IMG/VR virus record: IMGVR_UViG_3300041586_000229
Coordinates: 1 to 24,368 of that record
From: a virus
DNA: 24,368 bases
Strand: one strand, 5' to 3'
Shown one piece after another: positions 8,054-24,368 of this stretch (the first letter of the stretch is position 1; the number at the start of each line of letters is the position of its first letter). The position numbers and the translations under genes were made by a program. The notes beneath the pieces were generated by a model that saw only the letters and a program-made list of their open reading frames with translations, searched no databases and had not been told where the DNA came from.

Positions 8054-8163
8054 TAGCTTGTTTTTTTAATTGCCGTATAGCTGCTATTTGTATCAAAATG
8101 CCGTCTTTGGCTTTTCTGCTCAATCGTTATGCGCAAACCTAAAAGAGCCTCATCTGTGAAATA
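8053..8163 (-). pseudogene. Detached 3' end of the 403-aa tail gene
   Basis: After the methyltransferase stop (8139), a different frame remains open to TAA at 8055-8053. Read from TAT (8163-8161), it gives Y, then FTDEALLGLRITIEQ, then KSQRRHFDTNSSYTAIKKTS. It contains no ATG and begins inside the methyltransferase gene. Its TAA shares an A with the ATG of the 750-aa gene (TAATG), the kind of coupling expected of an intact upstream neighbour. Joining it at TAT to the TAT codon at 9009-9007 of the 403-aa gene gives one continuous frame of about 434 residues. Interpretation: this is the original C-terminus of that tail protein, cut off by insertion. Confidence 0.6.
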
Positions 8164-8978
8164 AAATCTGCATCAATTTCGGAGCCGACAAAAGACAATT
8201 CTGCCTTCATACATTCTTTTAAGTATTTGTAAATTTTCCATTTTGATAAAGATGGGCTTGCGATACTAGGATATAATTCTTCCCAATTCGCTTCCTTCAT
8301 CTTTTGAATAACCATCTCTTTTAATTGTGGGTTATTTACAATAATATAATGTTCATAAACAAATTGCCCTTGATATTTTATTTCTTTCCCAACAACCCCC
8401 CAAGAGCAAATACCTAAATCATATTTTTTAGGTATTTTACAACCTTTTCCTCTACCCCATGCTAATACAGTTACATCTTTGAACTCATAGTTGTATGGCT
8501 TTAAATTTAATCCATTTGAGTTTCTTTGATACACGTTAAAACAGCACCGAAGTTTTCGCCCGCAATACTCTATAAGTGGCAAAACTTCGGAATGAATTAA
8601 ATCAAACTTATACATTTGCTGATTATTGTTATATTGCCCCACGGGTAATATGAAGGCAATATAATCCCCCATACTTACACACTTATTATAAAAACGAACG
8701 CTTAATGTGTTTGCTGTTCCAAATGGTGGGTTACCAATAAATAATCTACCTTTTTTGTATGGCAAATTGAGTTGTAAAAAATCTTGCTTAATTATACTTT
8801 CGTGGTCGGGCTCTAAATCGTAGGCAATGCAGTTTGGTATCTGCAAACTAAATGCTCCGTTCCCTGCACTTGGCTCAATGGTTTCTGTAATATCTAAGCC
8901 TAACTTTTCAACTACATCAATACAATATTTTGCAAGTTTTTTTGAAGTGTAGTATTTGTCCAAATCAATTTTTGCCAT
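8139..8978 (-). CDS. DNA adenine-N6 methyltransferase, inserted cargo gene (moron)
   Basis: About 279 aa. Two class I methyltransferase motifs are clear: SAM-binding EPSAGNGAF around residues 36-44 and catalytic GNPPFG around 81-86, the NPPF form that marks amino-methylating DNA methyltransferases. It probably methylates adenine in phage DNA, for example to evade host restriction; the target site cannot be read. Start: ATG at 8978, 13 bp after the 403-aa gene stop; a longer frame from 9023 would overlap that gene and is less likely. Composition differs from its neighbours: much richer in A/T, with Lys, Asn, Ile and Tyr codons, against the Ala-rich tail genes. The last few codons (ISQMRLF) appear to be read from the disrupted tail gene's DNA. 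No restriction endonuclease partner is seen. Confidence 0.82.
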   Translation of the reverse strand: MAKIDLDKYYTSKKLAKYCIDVVEKLGLDITETIEPSAGNGAFSLQIPNCIAYDLEPDHESIIKQDFLQLNLPYKKGRLFIGNPPFGTANTLSVRFYNKCVSMGDYIAFILPVGQYNNNQQMYKFDLIHSEVLPLIEYCGRKLRCCFNVYQRNSNGLNLKPYNYEFKDVTVLAWGRGKGCKIPKKYDLGICSWGVVGKEIKYQGQFVYEHYIIVNNPQLKEMVIQKMKEANWEELYPSIASPSLSKWKIYKYLKECMKAELSFVGSEIDADFISQMRLF

Positions 8979-9009
8979 CGCTTTTTTTGTACTAATTGGA
9001 GTGTGAATA
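8161..9009. other. Insertion carrying the methyltransferase, with short junction similarity
   Basis: On the minus strand, the upstream junction reads TATTCACAC (9009-9001) and the downstream junction TATTTCACAG (8163-8154). Both begin with a TAT codon that is in frame with the two halves of the interrupted tail gene; the distance between the two TAT codons is 846 bp, a multiple of three. Nearly the whole segment is the methyltransferase frame, leaving no room for a transposase, an intron ribozyme or terminal inverted repeats. This looks like cargo acquisition by recombination at short similar sequences. It is inference from one genome. Confidence 0.5.
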
Positions 9010-10203
9010 ATCAATATTTGCAAGCGCGCATTCGACCTCTATATCGCGCACTGTTTGCGCCGTGCCTTCGGCTTCAAAGTCGCTAACCTTCTCGATAGCG
9101 ATAGCAATAAGCGTACTCTCGCCTGCTTTTTGTAGGTAAGCCACACTTGTATTTTGAAGCTCATAATACCACGGCAACAAGCGATTTACAACGCCAAATT
9201 TAGCTAAGGTAATTTTGCGGCTGCCTCGTGAATTTAATACAGTAAGCCCGCGCGCACTGGCGGTTGGGTAGTTAGGGTTGTTGGCAGTATATACTTCTTT
9301 TTCGATAGTATTAGTAAATTGAAAATCTTTAAAGCGGATAACATCGTCCGCCCCCAAGGCATTCAAAAAGAATAAGCTATACTTGCTGCACTCGCCTTTA
9401 GTTATAAAGAACTCTCGTATTTCTGTGAATACAAAAGGCACTGGTATGGTCGTATCTTCTACTATACAAATAGTATAATAATGCACCCCAACTAAAGAGG
9501 TCAGCAGCGCAATATCAGTAGTGCCAACCGCTAACCGTCGCACGCGCATAGCGTTATTTAAAGCCTGCCCTATGTCATAATAAACAGTAGCCATTAGCGC
9601 ACCTGTGCTGTTAAAAGTTTGCACCCGCATTCCCTCTCGCGAGTTGCCGCGATTAAAGTAGCTTAGAAATAACTTTTCGTTTAATGCCATAGATTGGCGC
9701 ATTGGCGCATTAGTCAAAAAACGCGTAGGGAGAGCACCGCCAAAATACTCTATACTCTGCTCATCTAAGTATTGGTTAGCTGCTATATTAAGCCCTAATA
9801 AGGAGTTGGAGGTATAGGTAATTGCTGTATCTTCATAGATGCCATTAACGCCGCTGCCCTGCCAAACTACAAAGACGACATAGAAGGTACAACGCTTTGC
9901 GAAGCCTGCATTAGAAGCGTCAGCAGTGGGCTGTACGTTTGTATTGGCCCCTAAATTAAAGGTGTCTTCATTTTTGGCATACGTCCGCAAAAGTTCTGAT
10001 ACATCAAAACGGAACTTAAAATCGCCACTAATAACATAATGCGGCTGCGTTATCTCTCTACCGTATGTTGCGCCGTTGATATACAGCTGCGCCTTTATGA
10101 TTGGCGGCTTACCAAAAGCAAATGCCGCTGTAAGCTCGTAGCTTATTGGCGCATAGATGCTTAAAAGGTCGCCCGAAGGCATAGGTTGTGCTACTAAAGC
10201 CAT
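8992..10203 (-). CDS. Tail structural protein, 403 aa, C-terminus altered by insertion
   Basis: Function not recognised by motif. The sequence is rich in beta-strand-like segments, aromatic residues and Asn, without a membrane segment or catalytic signature, and lies among tail genes between the gp10-like protein and the 750-aa protein. I infer a tail or baseplate component. The ATG at 10203 is 6 bp after the gp10-like gene stop. The natural end was probably not the present TAG at 8992: after TAT (9009-9007) only SHSN is added, whereas the 35 codons that would continue the frame lie beyond the methyltransferase. The present protein would therefore lack about 35 C-terminal residues of its ancestor. 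Whether it still works cannot be judged. Confidence 0.65.
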   Translation of the reverse strand: MALVAQPMPSGDLLSIYAPISYELTAAFAFGKPPIIKAQLYINGATYGREITQPHYVISGDFKFRFDVSELLRTYAKNEDTFNLGANTNVQPTADASNAGFAKRCTFYVVFVVWQGSGVNGIYEDTAITYTSNSLLGLNIAANQYLDEQSIEYFGGALPTRFLTNAPMRQSMALNEKLFLSYFNRGNSREGMRVQTFNSTGALMATVYYDIGQALNNAMRVRRLAVGTTDIALLTSLVGVHYYTICIVEDTTIPVPFVFTEIREFFITKGECSKYSLFFLNALGADDVIRFKDFQFTNTIEKEVYTANNPNYPTASARGLTVLNSRGSRKITLAKFGVVNRLLPWYYELQNTSVAYLQKAGESTLIAIAIEKVSDFEAEGTAQTVRDIEVECALANIDYSHSN

Positions 10204-10209
10204 TTTATT

Positions 10210-10752
10210 TTATTTTGTTATATCAGCTACTAAAATATCTAACTGCGCTAATACCGTCGCTTCTAAGCCGTCCTGCAAAATAGAATCTATCTTAGCTGCA
10301 TTATTATTTACTACATACGACTGGAAGCCTTTGCGCCGCCCGTTGCTGCTAAACAGATACGAGCCGCGCGTCGGCATACCTTCTTGCTTATGCTTGCGAG
10401 CTATGCCAAAAGCCATGCCTGTAGCTTCCAACCCCGAAGCTATGCCTTTTATCTTTACCCACTCAATAAGGGCTTGAATATACTTAGAGGTCTTTGCGCC
10501 CGTCTTTTTGCCGTACGGTATGCGGTCTGCCCGCACGCCCGTCTCTACGTAACGCCCGTACTCTAAGTAGCTTATCTCTAAAGCTAAGGAGTTGGCATAT
10601 ACAGTAACATTGTACTCAATGCTTGATGCCAGCCGACCTGTTGCCCTATGCCCCTGCCCTATAAGCTCCCGCGCCAACTCGTCCTTTAGCAAATCGCCCA
10701 ACTTATCTAAGTTGTCGCGTAGCTGATTGGATAGTTTTATTATATCTAACAT
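10210..10752 (-). CDS. HK97-gp10-like tail-completion/neck protein
   Basis: 180 aa. The family's usual pattern is visible: an N-terminal helix rich in Leu, Asp and Lys (LSNQLRDNLDKLGDLL), a conserved-looking RATGRLASSIEY around residues 36-47, then YLEYGRYVETG around 62-72, and a C-terminal helical stretch. HK97 gp10-type proteins sit at the head-tail junction and terminate or connect the tail tube. Length is in the normal range (about 110-190 aa). The ATG at 10752 follows the 52-aa membrane gene stop by 11 bp. It lies in the tail operon, not beside the head connector gene, which is on the opposite strand at 19962. Confidence 0.75.
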   Translation of the reverse strand: MLDIIKLSNQLRDNLDKLGDLLKDELARELIGQGHRATGRLASSIEYNVTVYANSLALEISYLEYGRYVETGVRADRIPYGKKTGAKTSKYIQALIEWVKIKGIASGLEATGMAFGIARKHKQEGMPTRGSYLFSSNGRRKGFQSYVVNNNAAKIDSILQDGLEATVLAQLDILVADITK

Positions 10753-10763
10753 AGTGCGTCATT

Positions 10764-10922
10764 TTAATTATAAAACCCCGTGTTTTTTGGCACTATTGCG
10801 CAAATTACATGACTATACATAAGTAAGCCTATATAAAAGCATATAGCTACGAAGCAAAAAACACTAAAACGATAAGTAAGATAAGCAAGGACTGCGACCG
10901 CAAAGAGTATAAAATCTTTCAT
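10764..10922 (-). CDS. Small hydrophobic membrane protein, 52 aa
   Basis: A short gene. It starts ATG (10922-10920) and ends TAA (10766-10764). The start overlaps the stop of the upstream 82-aa gene as ATGA, a classic coupling arrangement, and the stop lies 11 bp before the gp10-like gene, so it fills what would otherwise be a 166-bp gap in a tightly packed operon. Residues 4-16 (FILFAVAVLAYLT) and about 21-43 (VFCFVAICFYIGLLM and following) are strongly hydrophobic: one long or two short membrane segments. Role unknown; a holin-like or superinfection-exclusion role is conceivable but unsupported. Confidence 0.65.
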   Translation of the reverse strand: MKDFILFAVAVLAYLTYRFSVFCFVAICFYIGLLMYSHVICAIVPKNTGFYN

Positions 10923-11178: not shown

Positions 11179-11385
11179 TTACATTACAAAACGCTTAGGC
11201 ATAAATAGTATTTCGGGCAAATCTTTTACCCACGCAAACTCTGCATGATTGCACCCGTCCGACTCCTGCATAGATATAACCCAATTATCGTTTACGTCTT
11301 GTATTGGGTTAAAATAGGCATCATTAGCGAAGGTTTGACCGTACAAACTTTGAGCCTGCTCCGCGGTTAATTTCTTGACTATCAT
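11179..11385 (-). CDS. Hypothetical protein, 68 aa
   Basis: Not recognised. It starts ATG three bases after the stop of the 507-aa gene and ends 11 bp before the 82-aa gene, so it lies in an unbroken operon. The sequence has an N-terminal KKLTAEQAQSLYG helix and a later segment NWVISMQESDGCNHAEFAWV that could form a small beta sheet. Similar short proteins often follow phage tail-fibre genes, but I cannot name a family. Confidence 0.6.
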   Translation of the reverse strand: MIVKKLTAEQAQSLYGQTFANDAYFNPIQDVNDNWVISMQESDGCNHAEFAWVKDLPEILFMPKRFVM

Positions 11386-11388
11386 GTT

Positions 11389-12912
11389 CTAATTATTGCG
11401 CCCTAAAGCAGTTTGGAAAGTTTCGATAATAGCGTAAAACGTATTTGCTTCGGGCGTGGTTAGTCCGCTTAGTATAGCCGCAAAAGCGCACTGGCGAGCC
11501 GAAAAGGCATCTGTTGTACCGTTATTGTTGCGCGCCCCTATATATACTTTCTTATTGGAAGCTGTATTCGGCTGGTTATTTGTCGCTAACAAAGTGGCGT
11601 TTCTATGTATTCTGAAGTTTACCGCGTCTGTACGGCTTGCGATATACATAGCGTTGGTGGGCGTTCCTGCGAAGGGGGCGTTGCCCGTAGCATTTACAGC
11701 ATTAAAGCCCGTGCCGCTAATATTTGGCGCAATAAATAATTGGCCTTGTCCCGAACTTATCGCACTGCCACTCGCGCCCATTTCGATATACGAACCCGTT
11801 GCACTGGAGCGTGAATAATAGGCCAAGGTGATACTGCTTACAGCTGCATTAAGCGAAGGTGTGAAAAACGTATCTGCAAAAGCATTAGTAGCGTTTGGCG
11901 TTGCGCCCGTACTGCTATGTACCCAACCGCCCGCGAAGGTAAGGCGATAGGCTGCATTAGTATCTAACGGGTTTTTCGCATTGAATTTATGCGCTGCTGC
12001 TGTACCGCCTATAATAAAGTATAGCGCGTATGCCTTGAGCCAAAGCCCTGCATCTTTAAGGGCTAGGATAGCCTCGTTAGTGGCATCTTTAGTAGTGTCG
12101 CTTAATGTTGCGCCCGTAGCTTCGATAGCGGCAAAATAAAGTACAGCATCATCATCATAAGGATTAATAGGTATAATAGGCTCTTCCTGCGGGCGGGCAG
12201 CGATAGGCGCAACACAGCCAAAGAATTGCACATTGATATTTAAGAAATAGCTTATCGCGCTTTCTGTGTGCATATCAAAAGCTATATAAGCCTTTGTTGT
12301 CTCGCTTATATATTGGGTTAAATAAGCTACTTCCTCGTAACTTGTTATAGCCGTAAGTGCTAATAGCTGCTGTAAGCCCGCCACGCTATACCAGCCCGAA
12401 CGCAAAATCGAACCACCGTTATATAGGTCGGCATATACATAATCGCTAAGGGTAGCATACACTTGTTGCCACAGCGCGCGCAACCCCTGTGCCACCTCCT
12501 CATACGTCCGCTGCGCGCAAAGCGATTGATTAAAGTTGCTGCCCTGTGCCTGCTCTATCCTATCGCTTAAAGCTATACTGTAATCAATACTATATTGGCT
12601 GCCCGCGCGGCTATAACTCTCATCTTGTTCGCCTAAAAATAGGGCAGGGAAATTAAACCTCGCCTCTGTGCCGCCTTGCGCATCTGTTGGGCTGGCGCGG
12701 CTAAAGAATATCTTTTTACCATTATACCTACTATCCTTGCCTAAGTTGGCTGTTTTTACTTCGGCAGCGTAATCTTTAGTTACAGCTACTGTTTGCAGCC
12801 GCGCGCATTCAACCTCGCTGCCGTTGCCGTCCGTTACTATCTGCATACTATTAGCAATATCATAAAGTATGGCGTAAAAATCTAAAGGGGTAAAGCTACT
12901 TAATGCGCTCAT
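11389..12912 (-). CDS. Tail-associated protein with C-terminal lectin-like (LamG/ConA-type) domain
   Basis: 507 aa in two visible parts. Residues 1 to about 230 are acidic and Tyr/Ala-rich with helical stretches (for example YEEVAQGLRALWQQVYATLS) and no known motif. From about residue 315 onward the sequence becomes Ser/Thr/Asn/Gly/Ala-rich with regular beta strands and ends with FYAIIETFQTALGRNN, an ending I associate with concanavalin-like domains at the C-termini of Bacteroidota phage virion proteins (from memory, not searched). Such domains bind surface sugars, so a receptor-recognition or virion-decoration role is inferred. It follows the possible frameshift protein by 5 bp and precedes the 68-aa gene by 3 bp. 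Confidence 0.65.
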   Translation of the reverse strand: MSALSSFTPLDFYAILYDIANSMQIVTDGNGSEVECARLQTVAVTKDYAAEVKTANLGKDSRYNGKKIFFSRASPTDAQGGTEARFNFPALFLGEQDESYSRAGSQYSIDYSIALSDRIEQAQGSNFNQSLCAQRTYEEVAQGLRALWQQVYATLSDYVYADLYNGGSILRSGWYSVAGLQQLLALTAITSYEEVAYLTQYISETTKAYIAFDMHTESAISYFLNINVQFFGCVAPIAARPQEEPIIPINPYDDDAVLYFAAIEATGATLSDTTKDATNEAILALKDAGLWLKAYALYFIIGGTAAAHKFNAKNPLDTNAAYRLTFAGGWVHSSTGATPNATNAFADTFFTPSLNAAVSSITLAYYSRSSATGSYIEMGASGSAISSGQGQLFIAPNISGTGFNAVNATGNAPFAGTPTNAMYIASRTDAVNFRIHRNATLLATNNQPNTASNKKVYIGARNNNGTTDAFSARQCAFAAILSGLTTPEANTFYAIIETFQTALGRNN

Positions 12913-12917
12913 AGTGT

Positions 12918-13190
12918 TTATGCAATTGAGTTATGTATTTTAATATGGACAAAAACAGATAAGGCGCGATAAAAGCTCGCCCTATCGACGCACTCGATAG
13001 CCGAAATACCAGCATCAAAAGTGTTAAGGCTACCCGTTGCTGCTATATCATAAGTTATAGCCAGCCAGCCTATATCTCCAATAGGCTTTCTTGTTGCGGC
13101 GGTATTGCCGCTGCTATCTCTTGCCAATACGGGCTTTTGAAAAGCAACGCCAAAGAGACCGTGAGTTCGGAACGCACGAACGAATTTGTC
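12918..13190 (-). CDS. Candidate -1 frameshift extension (90 codons, no ATG)
   Basis: In the -1 frame relative to the preceding gene, the sequence is open from just after a TGA at 13208-13206 to the stop at 12920-12918. Past the T9 run it encodes 90 residues beginning DKFVRAFRTHGLFGVAFQKP and containing KPIGDIGWLAITYDIAATGS. There is no ATG or GTG in this open stretch; the only common alternative start is a TTG at 13127, which would give 69 aa. Its stop lies 5 bp before the next ATG, whereas using the zero-frame stop alone would leave a 157-bp gap. Either it is expressed by frameshifting, or it is a TTG-initiated small gene, or the T-run length is wrong in the assembly. Confidence 0.5.
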   Translation of the reverse strand, partial: DKFVRAFRTHGLFGVAFQKPVLARDSSGNTAATRKPIGDIGWLAITYDIAATGSLNTFDAGISAIECVDRASFYRALSVFVHIKIHNSIA

Positions 13191-13984
13191 AAAAAAAAAC
13201 CTACATCACGCGATATAGAACAAGGTAGGTCGTAAAAGAAAGCCTTTTGTTTTTTTAAGTGCGCCGCCCACGCCTCGCCCTGCATATTTGGGACAGCGGC
13301 TTTCTCTTCGTACGCGCCCGTCTCTTTATCAACGATGCGCACCTCGCGGCAAAGAGCGGCTAATATAGTAAGCGAGTTGTTAAGTAGCACCCCCTCGCCG
13401 TACTTGCCATCTTCCTGCGGCTTAGTAAAATAATCGCTTTGTAAGGCTTCAGTGGCTTCCCCCCAAGTCAAGGCTGCGCCTATCATATCGCCATTATAAG
13501 GCACAATAAAACGCCGCCCTTTATGCTCAAAATGCTCGACCTCGCACGGCGTATGGCTTTCGTAAAATGCGCTAAAGACATCGCAAAATAGATTATTTAA
13601 CGCCGCCACATCAGCATAGCAAGTAAACTGCTGTTTGCTTAGGTACGTAAGCACACCTGCGCCAGCGACACAAAAGAAGTTTAATAGCTCTATTAGTATT
13701 TGCGCAAAATCATTATACTGCTTTGGCTGCCACTTACTTAGTTGCATCTCATCTGTAATTAGCAGCGGGTCGATGCTCTCTATGCTCTTTAGCCCTAAAG
13801 CTACCTTTGACCACAGCTCCAAATTGAAAACATAAGTTTCTAATTCTGCAAACTTGCCTACTGCCATATCGCGGGCATCGATACAGAAAGACAACTCTAC
13901 CGTCTTGCTTTCGATACGCTTTGTTTCATCATTAAGCACATCTATATCAAAACGAAATTGCAGTGTTTTACTTTCCGTCATCAT
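13070..13984 (-). CDS. Phage protein with possible frameshift; candidate tail assembly chaperone
   Basis: 304 aa from the ATG at 13984 (a second ATG follows at once); a longer frame starting at 14029 would overlap the preceding gene by 62 bp and is less likely. The chosen start overlaps the 228-aa gene by 17 bp. The N-terminus LQFRFDIDVLNDETKRIESK looks beta-stranded; the middle is helical, with GEATEALQSDYF and LLNNSLTILAALCREVRI. About 40 codons before the zero-frame TAG, a T9 run could move ribosomes into the 90-codon -1 frame, giving a product of about 355 aa. Tail assembly chaperones of long-tailed phages characteristically use such shifts. That is the reason for the suggestion, but this gene is not adjacent to the tape measure as is usual. 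Confidence 0.55.
   Translation of the reverse strand: MMTESKTLQFRFDIDVLNDETKRIESKTVELSFCIDARDMAVGKFAELETYVFNLELWSKVALGLKSIESIDPLLITDEMQLSKWQPKQYNDFAQILIELLNFFCVAGAGVLTYLSKQQFTCYADVAALNNLFCDVFSAFYESHTPCEVEHFEHKGRRFIVPYNGDMIGAALTWGEATEALQSDYFTKPQEDGKYGEGVLLNNSLTILAALCREVRIVDKETGAYEEKAAVPNMQGEAWAAHLKKQKAFFYDLPCSISRDVGFFLTNSFVRSELTVSLALLFKSPYWQEIAAAIPPQQESLLEI
13190..13199 (-). promoter_or_regulatory. Candidate -1 ribosomal slippery site (T9, T TTT TTG)
   Basis: On the minus strand the zero frame reads GGT TTT TTT TTG ACA, so the last seven bases of the run plus G (13196-13190) fit the X XXY YYZ rule; the same pattern with a final A is the HIV-1 gag-pol site. Eight bases later there is a possible small hairpin GTTCG-(7 nt)-CGAAC (13181-13165), a sensible spacing though a weak stem. 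A nine-base homopolymer is also a common sequencing-error site. Confidence 0.5.
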
Positions 13985-14654
13985 TTTTTTCTTTTGCTGC
14001 ATTATAGAAATTATAAACGCGGTAGGCAATTTCTTTGCGCGGTATTAAGCCCCAACCTGTAGGAGTAAGCAAGTTTATTTCGCTTTCGTCAAGCAAGCCT
14101 TCGGCGCGGGCGATAGTAATAAGGGTATCGTTACTAATTGCGCGTGTCGCTTTCTCTACGCTTATTGCACTAACAGCAGATTGGATATAAGTCATAGCTC
14201 TAATAAACTTTGCGTCCTCCTCGCTACCGTTCTCAATAATAGCCTCTATTCGCTCCGCTGGCGTATTATCAGCTACTAACGCCACAGCAGGCAGGCTCAA
14301 TCTTTTTTTTTCATCTTCAGTAACGGGGCTAACTACTACTTCGGTAGTCTGCATAAGTTTGTTATAAAATGCCCACATAACCTGCGGCGGTATATCGCCC
14401 GCAAACGTGCGCCCGTCCAATACCTTTTTATTATCTACATGCTTTATATGCGACGCAACAGCAGCGAGCATTCTACCTGTTTCATCAAGCGGCACGGTAG
14501 TATCCTCTTGCGCAACAAGTATATTCAATTTTGCTACGAAGGCTTTGATGGCCGAAATAAAGGCTGCTTTACCCGTAGGGTTGGTAGCTTTGTAATTTGC
14601 CTCAACATCAACAAGGAGGGCAATCAACTCTTTTAAGTCTGTAATTTTTACCAT
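13968..14654 (-). CDS. Hypothetical protein, 228 aa, first gene of the leftward operon
   Basis: Not recognised. Soluble and largely helical: an N-terminal LKELIALLVDVEANYKATN, a central IPPQVMWAFYNKLMQTTE, an acidic segment with PAERIEAIIENGSEED, and a basic end. No catalytic signature, signal peptide or membrane segment. The ATG at 14654 lies about 35 bp downstream of the -7 element at 14689-14696, so this is the promoter-proximal gene. Its end overlaps the next gene's start by 17 bp, suggesting coupled translation and possibly a joint function in tail assembly. Confidence 0.7.
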   Translation of the reverse strand: MVKITDLKELIALLVDVEANYKATNPTGKAAFISAIKAFVAKLNILVAQEDTTVPLDETGRMLAAVASHIKHVDNKKVLDGRTFAGDIPPQVMWAFYNKLMQTTEVVVSPVTEDEKKRLSLPAVALVADNTPAERIEAIIENGSEEDAKFIRAMTYIQSAVSAISVEKATRAISNDTLITIARAEGLLDESEINLLTPTGWGLIPRKEIAYRVYNFYNAAKEKNDDGK

Positions 14655-14688
14655 GATGCGTATTTTGTATTTTGTTAAACTAATAATG

Positions 14689-14719
14689 CAAAGATAAACA
14701 ATATATATACATTATACAA
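14689..14719 (-). promoter_or_regulatory. Bacteroidota-type promoter for the leftward operon
   Basis: On the minus strand, TATCTTTG (14696-14689) matches the Bacteroidota -7 consensus TAnnTTTG exactly. TTG (14719-14717) lies 20 bases upstream of it, where the -33 element is expected. The first gene's ATG is about 34 bp downstream, leaving a short A-rich leader. Confidence 0.6.
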
Positions 14720-14737
14720 TAAAAATAACTAATTCGC

Positions 14738-14776
14738 GCGTTTTGAATAGTACAATATACGCAAAACGCTACTATT
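14738..14776. repeat. Two 15-bp blocks of swapped inverted repeats between divergent operons
   Basis: Block 1 is GCGTTTTG then AATAGTA (14738-14752). Block 2 is CAAAACGC then TACTATT (14762-14776). Each half of block 2 is the exact reverse complement of the same-position half of block 1, but the two halves keep their order instead of reversing. The first pair could form an 8-bp stem; the second pair could then pair only across it. The position between two divergent promoters suggests operator sites or an RNA pseudoknot in the rightward transcript. No transcription data are available. Confidence 0.5.
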
Positions 14777-14800
14777 TTTTCAGTTCTTTAGTTTATTAGC

Positions 14801-14808
14801 TAATATTG
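14801..14808 (+). promoter_or_regulatory. Weak candidate -7 element for the rightward operon
   Basis: TAATATTG matches TAnnTTTG at seven of eight positions and lies 36 bp upstream of the protease ATG. No clear TTG is found at the -33 distance, only a T-rich tract. A promoter for the head operon must lie in or near this region if the operon begins at 14845, but this exact site is uncertain. Confidence 0.3.
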
Positions 14809-14844
14809 CAGAAGTGCTGCAATAAGCCACACTAAGTAAGCAAT

Positions 14845-15930
14845 ATGACAAATAGCGAGATACTGCAATATATCGAGGGTAATACTTGGCTTGTAACTGA
14901 AGGTTTAGCATCTTCTTTTCGCTCCCTAATAAATTCGGGTGAAGGCATAGCCTTTGAAGAAATAGCCAAGCGGCGCGAACAGCATAATGCCACAAATAAA
15001 ACTTTAGTTTTTACTGCGGGCAAAAAGCTGATGCCGTATAAGGAAGGTAAAAAGCGGCAGCCTATGCCATCGATGGATAACGAAATTTATACAGACGACG
15101 GCGAAGGGGAAACCGAAGAAGATAAAAGTATAGTAAGCCCTGAAGGCATCGCTGTTATGCGCATTAAAGGCGTACTACATAAAGATAGCGATTATTGCAA
15201 CAAAGGAACAATGGAGATTAATGCAGACCTTATGGAGCTGGGCGAAGACCCGCGCATTAAAGGCGTAATTCTTTGCATTGATAGTGGCGGTGGCGAGGTG
15301 GCAGGCACGGAGCAATTGGCTGATACTATATACAATTTTAAGCGGGCGTACGGCAAGCGTATTGAAGCGGTTGTATATACGGCTGGCAGTGCTGCTTATT
15401 GGTTAGCTTCGGGTTGCGATAAGATATACTTAGTAGGGCAAACCTCATCTGTTGGCAGTATAGGCACTATGGCGACGCTTGTAAACTCCGAAGGGCTGAT
15501 GCAGGCAGCAGGCATAAGCATTATAAATATATATGCTACTCTTAGCTATAATAAAAACAAAGAGTACGATGACGCACTGGCGGGCAACCCTGCGGCGATG
15601 CGCACCGAAGTATTGGATAAAATAAATACCGTCTTTTTGGCTGCCGTAATACGTGGGCGATACCGAAGTAAATATAAGGTAGAGGAGCTGACTTTGGAAA
15701 ATACGCCGCCCGAATTAACGGGTAAAATATACTTCGGCAAAGATGCCATAGCGGTAGGCTTAGCTGATAGCATAGGAACGTTAGAGCAGGCTTTAGTTAA
15801 TTTTGATACGCGCACAGCGGGTAGCTTAGTTACAGCAAGCGAAGAGCCTGCTTTTACAATACCTACAATGTCTATTTTAACACAGCCCAAAGGCGGGCTT
15901 ACTATTCTTAAACCAATTACTAAAAATTAG
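14845..15930 (+). CDS. S49-family (SppA/lambda C-like) prohead protease
   Basis: 361 aa. The S49 serine-protease fold is clear: CIDSGGGEVAG around residues 144-154, the nucleophile motif TAGSAAYWLAS with probable catalytic Ser182, and SSVGSIG at 201-207. The SYNKNKEYDD stretch near 234-243 offers the general-base lysine (K237 or K239), and GKIYFGKDAIAVGLAD at 293-308 is the usual C-terminal signature. In phage heads these enzymes cleave scaffold and capsid precursors during maturation, then themselves. The roughly 100-residue N-terminal extension, longer than in bare SppA, is acidic (DDGEGETEED) and may be a propeptide. It is the first gene of the plus operon, 6 bp before the scaffold-like gene. 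Confidence 0.87.
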   Translation: MTNSEILQYIEGNTWLVTEGLASSFRSLINSGEGIAFEEIAKRREQHNATNKTLVFTAGKKLMPYKEGKKRQPMPSMDNEIYTDDGEGETEEDKSIVSPEGIAVMRIKGVLHKDSDYCNKGTMEINADLMELGEDPRIKGVILCIDSGGGEVAGTEQLADTIYNFKRAYGKRIEAVVYTAGSAAYWLASGCDKIYLVGQTSSVGSIGTMATLVNSEGLMQAAGISIINIYATLSYNKNKEYDDALAGNPAAMRTEVLDKINTVFLAAVIRGRYRSKYKVEELTLENTPPELTGKIYFGKDAIAVGLADSIGTLEQALVNFDTRTAGSLVTASEEPAFTIPTMSILTQPKGGLTILKPITKN

Positions 15931-23128: not shown

Positions 23129-23136
23129 CAAATATA
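23129..23136 (-). promoter_or_regulatory. Candidate -7 element for the 58-aa gene
   Basis: TATATTTG on the minus strand fits TAnnTTTG exactly and lies 32 bp before the ATG at 23097. No clear TTG is found at the -33 spacing (a TTTTG lies directly adjacent instead), so the promoter is plausible but incomplete. Confidence 0.4.
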
Positions 23137-23201
23137 CCACAAAAGCGCGGGATTACAGCCTAATTGCCATCTTTAATTAAAAGCAATACAAATACTTACA
23201 A

Positions 23202-23247
23202 AACCCTAAAAACGCGCTACAAGCTAATGTAGTGCATTTTTAGGGTT
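23202..23247. terminator. 20-bp stem-loop after the DUF4942 gene
   Basis: The arms 23202-23221 (AACCCTAAAAACGCG and onward) and 23228-23247 pair over 20 bp with one C-A mismatch and one G-T wobble around a 6-nt loop. It begins 5 bp after the stop of the minus-strand gene at 23253. The T5 tract lies inside the arm rather than after it, so it is probably a terminator or 3'-end stabilising hairpin, working in either direction. Confidence 0.6.
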
Positions 23248-23252
23248 CGGGG

Positions 23253-24368
23253 CTAACCCACCCAGTTCTTACCTTTGGCGGCGGCTTGATTGAAGCGCGC
23301 CCACACGCCTTCATCTTTAAATTTTAGGTGCATAGTGCCTTTTTTGTAGATGCGAATAGTGAAAAAATAACTATCATGCTCTGCATTAAAAGCATTATCC
23401 CTTTTATCAAAAGATAGTATGCTGCTTAGGGTAGCACAAATACTTTGCTGCCTTATGGTATCGTAAGATACGCCTGCGATAAAGCATAATGCACGCTCTA
23501 AGTCATCAAAATTGCCGCCGTGACAATCTTTAGCGTAGTAATTAGTAGTTACGCCATACTTATCAAAAGTATGTAGCGCAGGTACTATGCACTTTATATT
23601 GACTTTGTAATTGCTATTTGTTTTCCAACCCTCTTTGTGTATGATGTTTTTCTTATCATAAGAAGTTAGGAAGTTAAAACTATCCTCTATGGCTTTTCCC
23701 ATGACCTGCCCGCGCGTTCCTATCAGCGTATCTATAAAGCTGTTTAAATTAGCTTCGCTAAAAGCCATGCCGCCTAAGCGTTTTTGCTCTGCTGCAAATT
23801 TTTCTTTCACGCCAGCAGTAATTAACTTGCGATAAGCAGGCTTGTCAAAAAAGTCCCCCCACGCGTTTGTTGTCATTCTCTCAATAGCTTCATTAAAGCT
23901 ATCTTGCGTACCTTTAGCGAGTATTTCGGATAAAGGATTTTTGTGGTTATAGCTGTGTACGCTTGACTTTTGTGCGCCACAACCATTGCAGTAGTAATTA
24001 AAACGATGCGTAGCCGCTACAACGTCCCGTAGCGCATCGATGGCAGCCTGAAAGTTAGATACTTGGTTTTTGATATAGCTCGGCGTTGACAACTCCGCCT
24101 GCTGCTGCGCGCCCGCTATGTCTTCTTTTTGCATACCTTGTAAGTTGCCTATATTTAAGCTGATGCGCTTTTTTGCGGGCTTAAATATGCTTACAAGGGC
24201 TACCTCTACGCCTGTGCGCCGTTCGGCATCTGCTGCAAAAGCATTTTGGATATACTCAACCTCGCCGCCGTTTTGGGCTATTATTTCGGCTATTATTTCG
24301 CGCTCGTGTGTGTAGGTGTTGCGTAAAGTTTCCGCGTTTAGTAGGCAGCGAATATGCGCGCCGTCTGC
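23253..24368 (-). CDS. Methyltransferase-DUF4942 fusion protein, C-terminal part (runs off right edge)
   Basis: The frame is open through the right edge, so the gene is longer than the 293 codons that start at the internal ATG at 24134; 371 residues are visible. The first 78 hold the end of a class I methyltransferase domain: CLLNAETLRNTYTHEREI, NGGEVEYIQNAFAADAERRT, GVEVALVSIFKP, a pattern seen in Bacteroidota proteins with a C-terminal DUF4942. The SAM loop and NPPF motif would lie outside the window. The rest resembles DUF4942, ending TMHLKFKDEGVWARFN and a basic tail. Such proteins are common in mobile elements and are thought to modify DNA; the role of DUF4942 is unknown. Cysteines in NYYCNGCG (around residues 126-129) may bind metal. 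Confidence 0.72.
   Translation of the reverse strand, partial: ADGAHIRCLLNAETLRNTYTHEREIIAEIIAQNGGEVEYIQNAFAADAERRTGVEVALVSIFKPAKKRISLNIGNLQGMQKEDIAGAQQQAELSTPSYIKNQVSNFQAAIDALRDVVAATHRFNYYCNGCGAQKSSVHSYNHKNPLSEILAKGTQDSFNEAIERMTTNAWGDFFDKPAYRKLITAGVKEKFAAEQKRLGGMAFSEANLNSFIDTLIGTRGQVMGKAIEDSFNFLTSYDKKNIIHKEGWKTNSNYKVNIKCIVPALHTFDKYGVTTNYYAKDCHGGNFDDLERALCFIAGVSYDTIRQQSICATLSSILSFDKRDNAFNAEHDSYFFTIRIYKKGTMHLKFKDEGVWARFNQAAAKGKNWVG
24277..24300 (-). repeat. 12-bp exact tandem duplication inside the methyltransferase gene
   Basis: The 12-mer GCTATTATTTCG (plus strand) occurs twice in succession (24277-24288, 24289-24300). It is in frame and encodes EIIAEIIA in the reverse direction, lengthening a helix by one turn. 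It probably arose by slippage and may vary between relatives. Confidence 0.8.

Follow-up and report, generated by a model that had tools for sequence, protein, structure and literature searches.

Frameshifting in tail assembly chaperone genes is a textbook example of programmed recoding and is described as ribosomal. In phage lambda (G/GT) and phage P2 (E/E+E'), one tail gene carries an extension in the -1 frame and yields both a short and a long product; the annotated P2 site is GGT TTT TTG, with six T's. Transcriptional slippage at A or T homopolymers within coding regions also gives two-frame products, as in Thermus thermophilus dnaX (T9), Shigella mxiE/spa13, and Citrobacter tssM (A11) (PMC5009743, PMC4256274). 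Those are bacterial genes supported by experimental evidence, whereas the gene described here belongs to a phage structural operon and is known to us through comparative genomics only.

The gene belongs to a Bacteroidota-type phage, a virus record of 24,368 bases (IMGVR_UViG_3300041586_000229) that we call the window; coordinates refer to it unless a relative is named. Like lambda G/GT and P2 E/E+E', it is a tail gene with a -1 extension and, by prediction, a short and a long product. Unlike them, the family to which it belongs has a run of at least nine T's rather than six (GGT TTT TTT TTG in the window), usually sits several kilobases from the tape measure gene, has a larger N-terminal domain (∼264 aa), and shows no detectable sequence or fold similarity to either system.

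The gene and its two reading frames

The original prediction, which was made from sequence alone, had described a T9 run within a 304-aa zero-frame gene, overlapped by a -1 frame that lacks a start codon, is closed upstream by a TGA, and stops 5 nt short of the next gene. Each of these features held (Table 1). The TGA is at 13208-13206, the -1 frame contains neither ATG nor GTG and only one TTG, at codon 27, and the next gene starts at 12912. An alternative upstream ATG or TTG could lengthen the zero-frame ORF slightly. It had also been claimed that, without the extension, the operon would be left with a 157-nt gap, the largest it contains; this held when the count took in the small ORFs at 10764-10922 and 11179-11385.

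Table 1. Positions in the window of the two-frame gene and of neighboring genes
Feature	Coordinates	Strand	Remarks
Zero-frame gene, 304 aa, ATG start	13070..13984	-	∼264-aa shared N-terminal domain plus 40-residue zero-frame tail
T9 run (putative slippage run)	13191..13199	-	Zero frame ...GTA GGT TTT TTT TTG ACA...
-1-frame extension, FFFDKFVRAFR...HNSIA	12918..13205	-	C-terminal domain of the predicted long product; stop TAA at 12918-12920
Upstream neighbor, 228 aa	13968..14654	-	No assigned function; overlaps start of the 304-aa gene
Downstream neighbor, 507 aa	11389..12912	-	Relative in the same place in locus L017
Putative HK97 gp10-like protein	10210..10752	-	Most conserved neighbor; independent search bait
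Tail tape measure protein, 1503 aa	1277..5788	-	∼7.1 kb downstream of the extension

Taken alone, the T9 run is no evidence of function, because about two such runs are expected by chance in a window of this kind (2 observed on both strands against 2.05 expected); its significance comes from conservation. A chance T9 match on the sense strand was considered and rejected on the basis of conservation across homologues. The extension carries a conserved GW....IA motif. AlphaFold2 modeled the 304-aa protein with a pLDDT of 82 and a pTM of 0.78, and predicted the extension to be helical (pLDDT 78, pTM 0.56). We read the zero-frame model as a helical domain that has a hairpin at its N terminus and neither a shell fold nor a tube fold.

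Several other features of the window were recorded. An A9 run on the sense strand (14303-14311; T9 on the + strand) lies inside the 228-aa gene and is possibly slippage prone; it is absent from most relatives. Head and tail genes diverge at 14654-14845: those for the protease, the capsid candidate, and the portal are encoded on the + strand, and the tail genes on the - strand. The tail operon also contains a DNA methyltransferase-like gene (8139-9023), placed between genes for 403-aa and 750-aa proteins and overlapping the former.

Conservation of the T run and of both frames

When viral contigs were scanned with single-protein patterns of the 304-aa protein, the portal, and the protease, no relatives emerged, and none were found by tblastn of the 304-aa protein, the portal, and the 750-aa protein against annotated phages. 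Matches to the tape measure protein came mostly from phages of Bacteroidota (Bacteroides, Elizabethkingia, Cellulophaga, Phocaeicola, and Parabacteroides), and an alignment of its conserved region was used to collect 80 viral loci. Among these, the zero-frame protein had tblastn matches in L017 (26% identity, E 3e-12) and L039, each of which has a second ORF across a T9 run. L017 also has a gene of similar size in the place of the window's 228-aa gene. BKO1-3, TCUEAP1/2, and MT835637 contained no match to the fused protein, and Elizabethkingia TCUEAP1_3, which looked similar by eye, failed the profile test and was not retained. Profiles of the zero-frame domain and of the extension were iterated separately, as independent HMMs. 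One pattern used in the extension search includes FFFD, though TTC codons were permitted; a search through the gp10-like neighbor, which is free of this kind of bias, enlarged the set of loci.

The first 14 loci matched by both profiles all have the extension in the -1 frame, with a T9 or T10 run at the junction (14/14), and each of the 14 loci first examined (6 to 24 kb) contains exactly one sense-strand run of nine or more T's, located at the junction. The extension search gave 70 loci, all with T9 and all in the -1 frame. Across the enlarged set, which includes loci gathered through the tape measure and through the gp10-like neighbor, both profiles match 163 loci, of which 162 have a -1 extension across T9 (159 loci) or T10 (3 loci). 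These 162 loci comprise 86 distinct junctions. When they were reduced to representatives with less than 80% identity, 39 lineages remained, every one of which has a run of at least nine T's. The sole exception, L157 (2330-2520), has T8 and a second homopolymer indel upstream, and is otherwise near-identical to L075; given this second indel relative to near-identical relatives, its T8 is probably a sequencing error. One further locus, L213, has the T9 run and a -1 ORF that is too divergent for the extension profile to match.

The arrangement extends beyond environmental sequences. One locus (L163) is a contig of a Kordia metagenome-assembled genome, and searches of Bacteroidota genomes gave eight further prophage-like Bacteroidia loci, all with T9 at the junction (8/8). 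A structure search with the model of the N-terminal domain led, through a BFVD match, to gp38 of the cultured Nonlabens phage P12024S (JQ823122; L247 in our set, 23136-23830). In this phage, a T9 run lies in the overlap between gp38 and a -1 ORF and is the only sense-strand T9 in 35.7 kb, and an extension profile built without P12024S matches its extension (E 9e-5). The deposited record lists gp38 and gp39 as separate hypothetical genes, with gp39 beginning at an internal ATG, but the gp39 frame continues upstream across the T9. P12024S thus resembles the window in its two-frame layout, its T9, its related extension, and the structural match of its N-terminal domain, and differs in the codon register of the run, in having a shorter extension, and in its annotation as two hypothetical proteins. 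With P12024S and the bacterial-genome loci added, the family comprises about 49 lineages.

Five distant relatives (L009, L010, L014, L046, and L051) have the N-terminal domain within one continuous ORF and no T run above 7. Only L014 has a match to the extension at the right place, and this match is weak (E 0.075). These loci could be natural fusions in which the frame switch was lost or gained, a possibility that is suggested by our data rather than shown.

Substitution patterns point to coding in both frames. Beyond the zero-frame stop, the extension has a median dN/dS of 0.125 (70-locus set; 1,668 pairs, which are related and not independent), and its third codon positions vary the most (0.31, against 0.12 and 0.07). 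In the overlap, variability is flat across the three codon positions (0.14, 0.13, and 0.16), as expected of dual-coding DNA if both frames are constrained. Given the low dN/dS of the extension and the flat variation of the overlap, the extension and the zero-frame tail both look coding. Comparison across the family shows that the two frames are coding and selected and that the run of at least nine T's is conserved. The original prediction had named a conserved run and purifying selection on the -1 frame as the outcome to look for among homologues, and both were found. It had also held that extensions starting at an ATG of their own, or random substitutions in the -1 frame, would refute it; no extension begins at its own ATG near the junction in the frameshift-type relatives inspected, and the extension is under purifying selection.

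Possible function and route of the frame change

The gene probably encodes a tail assembly chaperone pair like G/GT of lambda, an inference from architecture and synteny that is made without binding data. The N-terminal domain would coat the tape measure, and the extension would recruit tail tube subunits. Two observations underlie this inference, namely the two-product architecture and a position in the tail operon that is near the tape measure in some relatives. In L066, L074, L170, and L171, the tape measure (the first long downstream ORF, 1028 to 1453 aa) begins 1.2 to 2.4 kb after the extension, with genes intervening, and across 70 loci the median distance from the extension to the first long ORF is 4.8 kb. 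Since the 7.1 kb in the window is within the range of its relatives, it is not odd for the family, and the earlier view that this distance would be unusual needs refining in that respect. Direct adjacency to the tape measure gene, as in G/GT pairs, is seen neither in the window nor in the relatives with the shortest distance; we therefore do not file the gene as a proven G/GT member, only as one presumed to work in the same way. Pfam, PHROG, and NCBIfam searches found no family match, sequence and fold searches of the PDB found no relative and no known chaperone, and the only named chaperone matched in BFVD, from Lactobacillus phage 521B, was weak (E 0.65). The parallel with chaperone genes drawn in the original prediction is supported as an inference, without a clear match to any known chaperone.

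That two products sharing an N terminus are made through a -1 shift is supported by the arrangement found in 162 of 163 loci. A programmed frame switch, whether by the polymerase or by the ribosome, is very likely, although there are no RNA or protein data and the products have not been observed. As for the route, we consider slippage by RNA polymerase to be at least as likely as ribosomal frameshifting, and we lean toward it modestly; without RNA data it is not shown. In this scenario, RNA polymerase would slip on the T9, and some of the transcripts would carry an extra U (U10). A single added U is just what entry into the -1 frame requires, so that U10 transcripts would place the extension in frame and give a minor long form of ∼355 aa, while ordinary translation of U9 transcripts would give the short form of ∼304 aa.

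Our lean toward the polymerase rests on the length of the run in three codon registers, on a fixed T at its start, on the failure to find a conserved RNA structure, and on published slippage data. The run mostly reads xxT TTT TTT TTG or TTA, the main register; the three registers of the representatives also include TTT TTT TTT (L066 and L074) and CTT TTT TTT TCG (L018), and further forms are CTT TTT TTT TAT (P12024S) and GTT TTT TTT TGC (L256). The base before the first TTT codon, a wobble position preceding TTT TTT TTR, is T in all 34 main-register representatives. Were that base free, codon usage would give this outcome a probability of 10^-17.8, a figure that is overstated because the lineages are related. 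A conserved RNA structure downstream of the run was sought and not found (mean fold z of -0.1 to -0.7). For E. coli RNA polymerase, at least 7 T's are needed, insertions exceed deletions, and slippage is greater on T than on A (PMC6260861), and in vivo A9/T9 supports efficient slippage (PMC5009743). Several points count against the polymerase: T TTT TTT TTG contains two overlapping slippery heptamers, so all of the conserved T's can serve the ribosome, the coding of Phe and Leu in both frames also keeps some of the T's, and the precedent from known chaperone genes is ribosomal. In the literature we searched, nothing linked T9 runs or transcriptional slippage to chaperones of this kind.

Hairpins directly 3' of the T9 with z below -2 were seen only in three GC-richer relatives (L075, 7960-8010; L074, 7952-8000; L026, 3475-3530). 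They may be lineage-specific stimulators.

Alternative explanations and significance

The closest competitor to polymerase slippage is programmed -1 ribosomal frameshifting, in which tRNAs slip in tandem inside the T9, at T TTT TTT or T TTT TTG; this would give the same two products and the same chaperone role. In its favor, an in-phase slippery heptamer (T TTT TTN) is present at the junction in every member examined, the chaperones of lambda and P2 are made through ribosomal -1 shifts (PMC5009743), with P2 shifting at T TTT TTG, and L075, L074, and L026 have strong hairpins just after the run. Against it, six or seven T's suffice, yet the family retains at least nine, in three registers; the T before the first TTT is fixed in 34 of 34 lineages though T TTT TTG does not need it; and no conserved downstream structure was found. 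We rate this route slightly behind the polymerase. The original prediction had placed the shift at T TTT TTG, which held in part but was too narrow: what is conserved is a stretch of nine or more T's, which occurs in three registers, and polymerase slippage is a serious alternative. A more radical objection is that the T9 is a sequencing or assembly error, the true genome having T10 and one continuous gene. Homopolymers are indeed error prone, and L157 has both T8 and another indel, but the same run length recurs across 162 loci that stem from many different projects, as well as in bacterial genomes and a cultured phage, and the DNA downstream bears a dual-coding signature. This reading is all but ruled out.

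It could also be argued that the extension is a separate gene with an internal start (TTG or other), never joined to the 304-aa protein. The TTG at codon 27 of the open -1 frame and the annotation of gp39 from an internal ATG in P12024S would fit such a gene, but conservation spans the junction (FFF, then the extension) upstream of any shared start codon, the internal start codons of the extension vary between relatives, and conservation of the T9 would be left unexplained. We regard a separate gene as very improbable. Finally, the frame switch might be real and the product not a chaperone but some other protein of the head-tail region or tail that carries a minor C-terminal extension. The absence of sequence or PDB fold matches to known chaperones and the 7.1 kb that separate the window gene from the tape measure speak for this reading; a two-product gene in a tail operon, with the tape measure following 1.2 to 2.4 kb downstream in four relatives, speaks against it, as does the predicted model, which we read as helical with an N-terminal hairpin rather than as a shell or tube fold. 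We consider it unlikely, and retain the chaperone assignment.

Pfam, PHROGs, and NCBIfam do not recognize the family, whose lineages come from environmental sequences, a cultured phage, and bacterial genomes. In phages of Bacteroidota, whose gene functions are poorly known, searching for a T9 run with a -1 extension behind it is a simple rule for spotting a tail gene. A bolder reading, which we put forward tentatively and do not at present favor, is that a large, unannotated chaperone family of Bacteroidota phages controls its short-to-long product ratio through polymerase slippage on T9, unlike the ribosomal frameshifting of other tailed phages. The conserved length of the run makes it testable whether the chaperone ratio in these phages is set at transcription rather than at translation.
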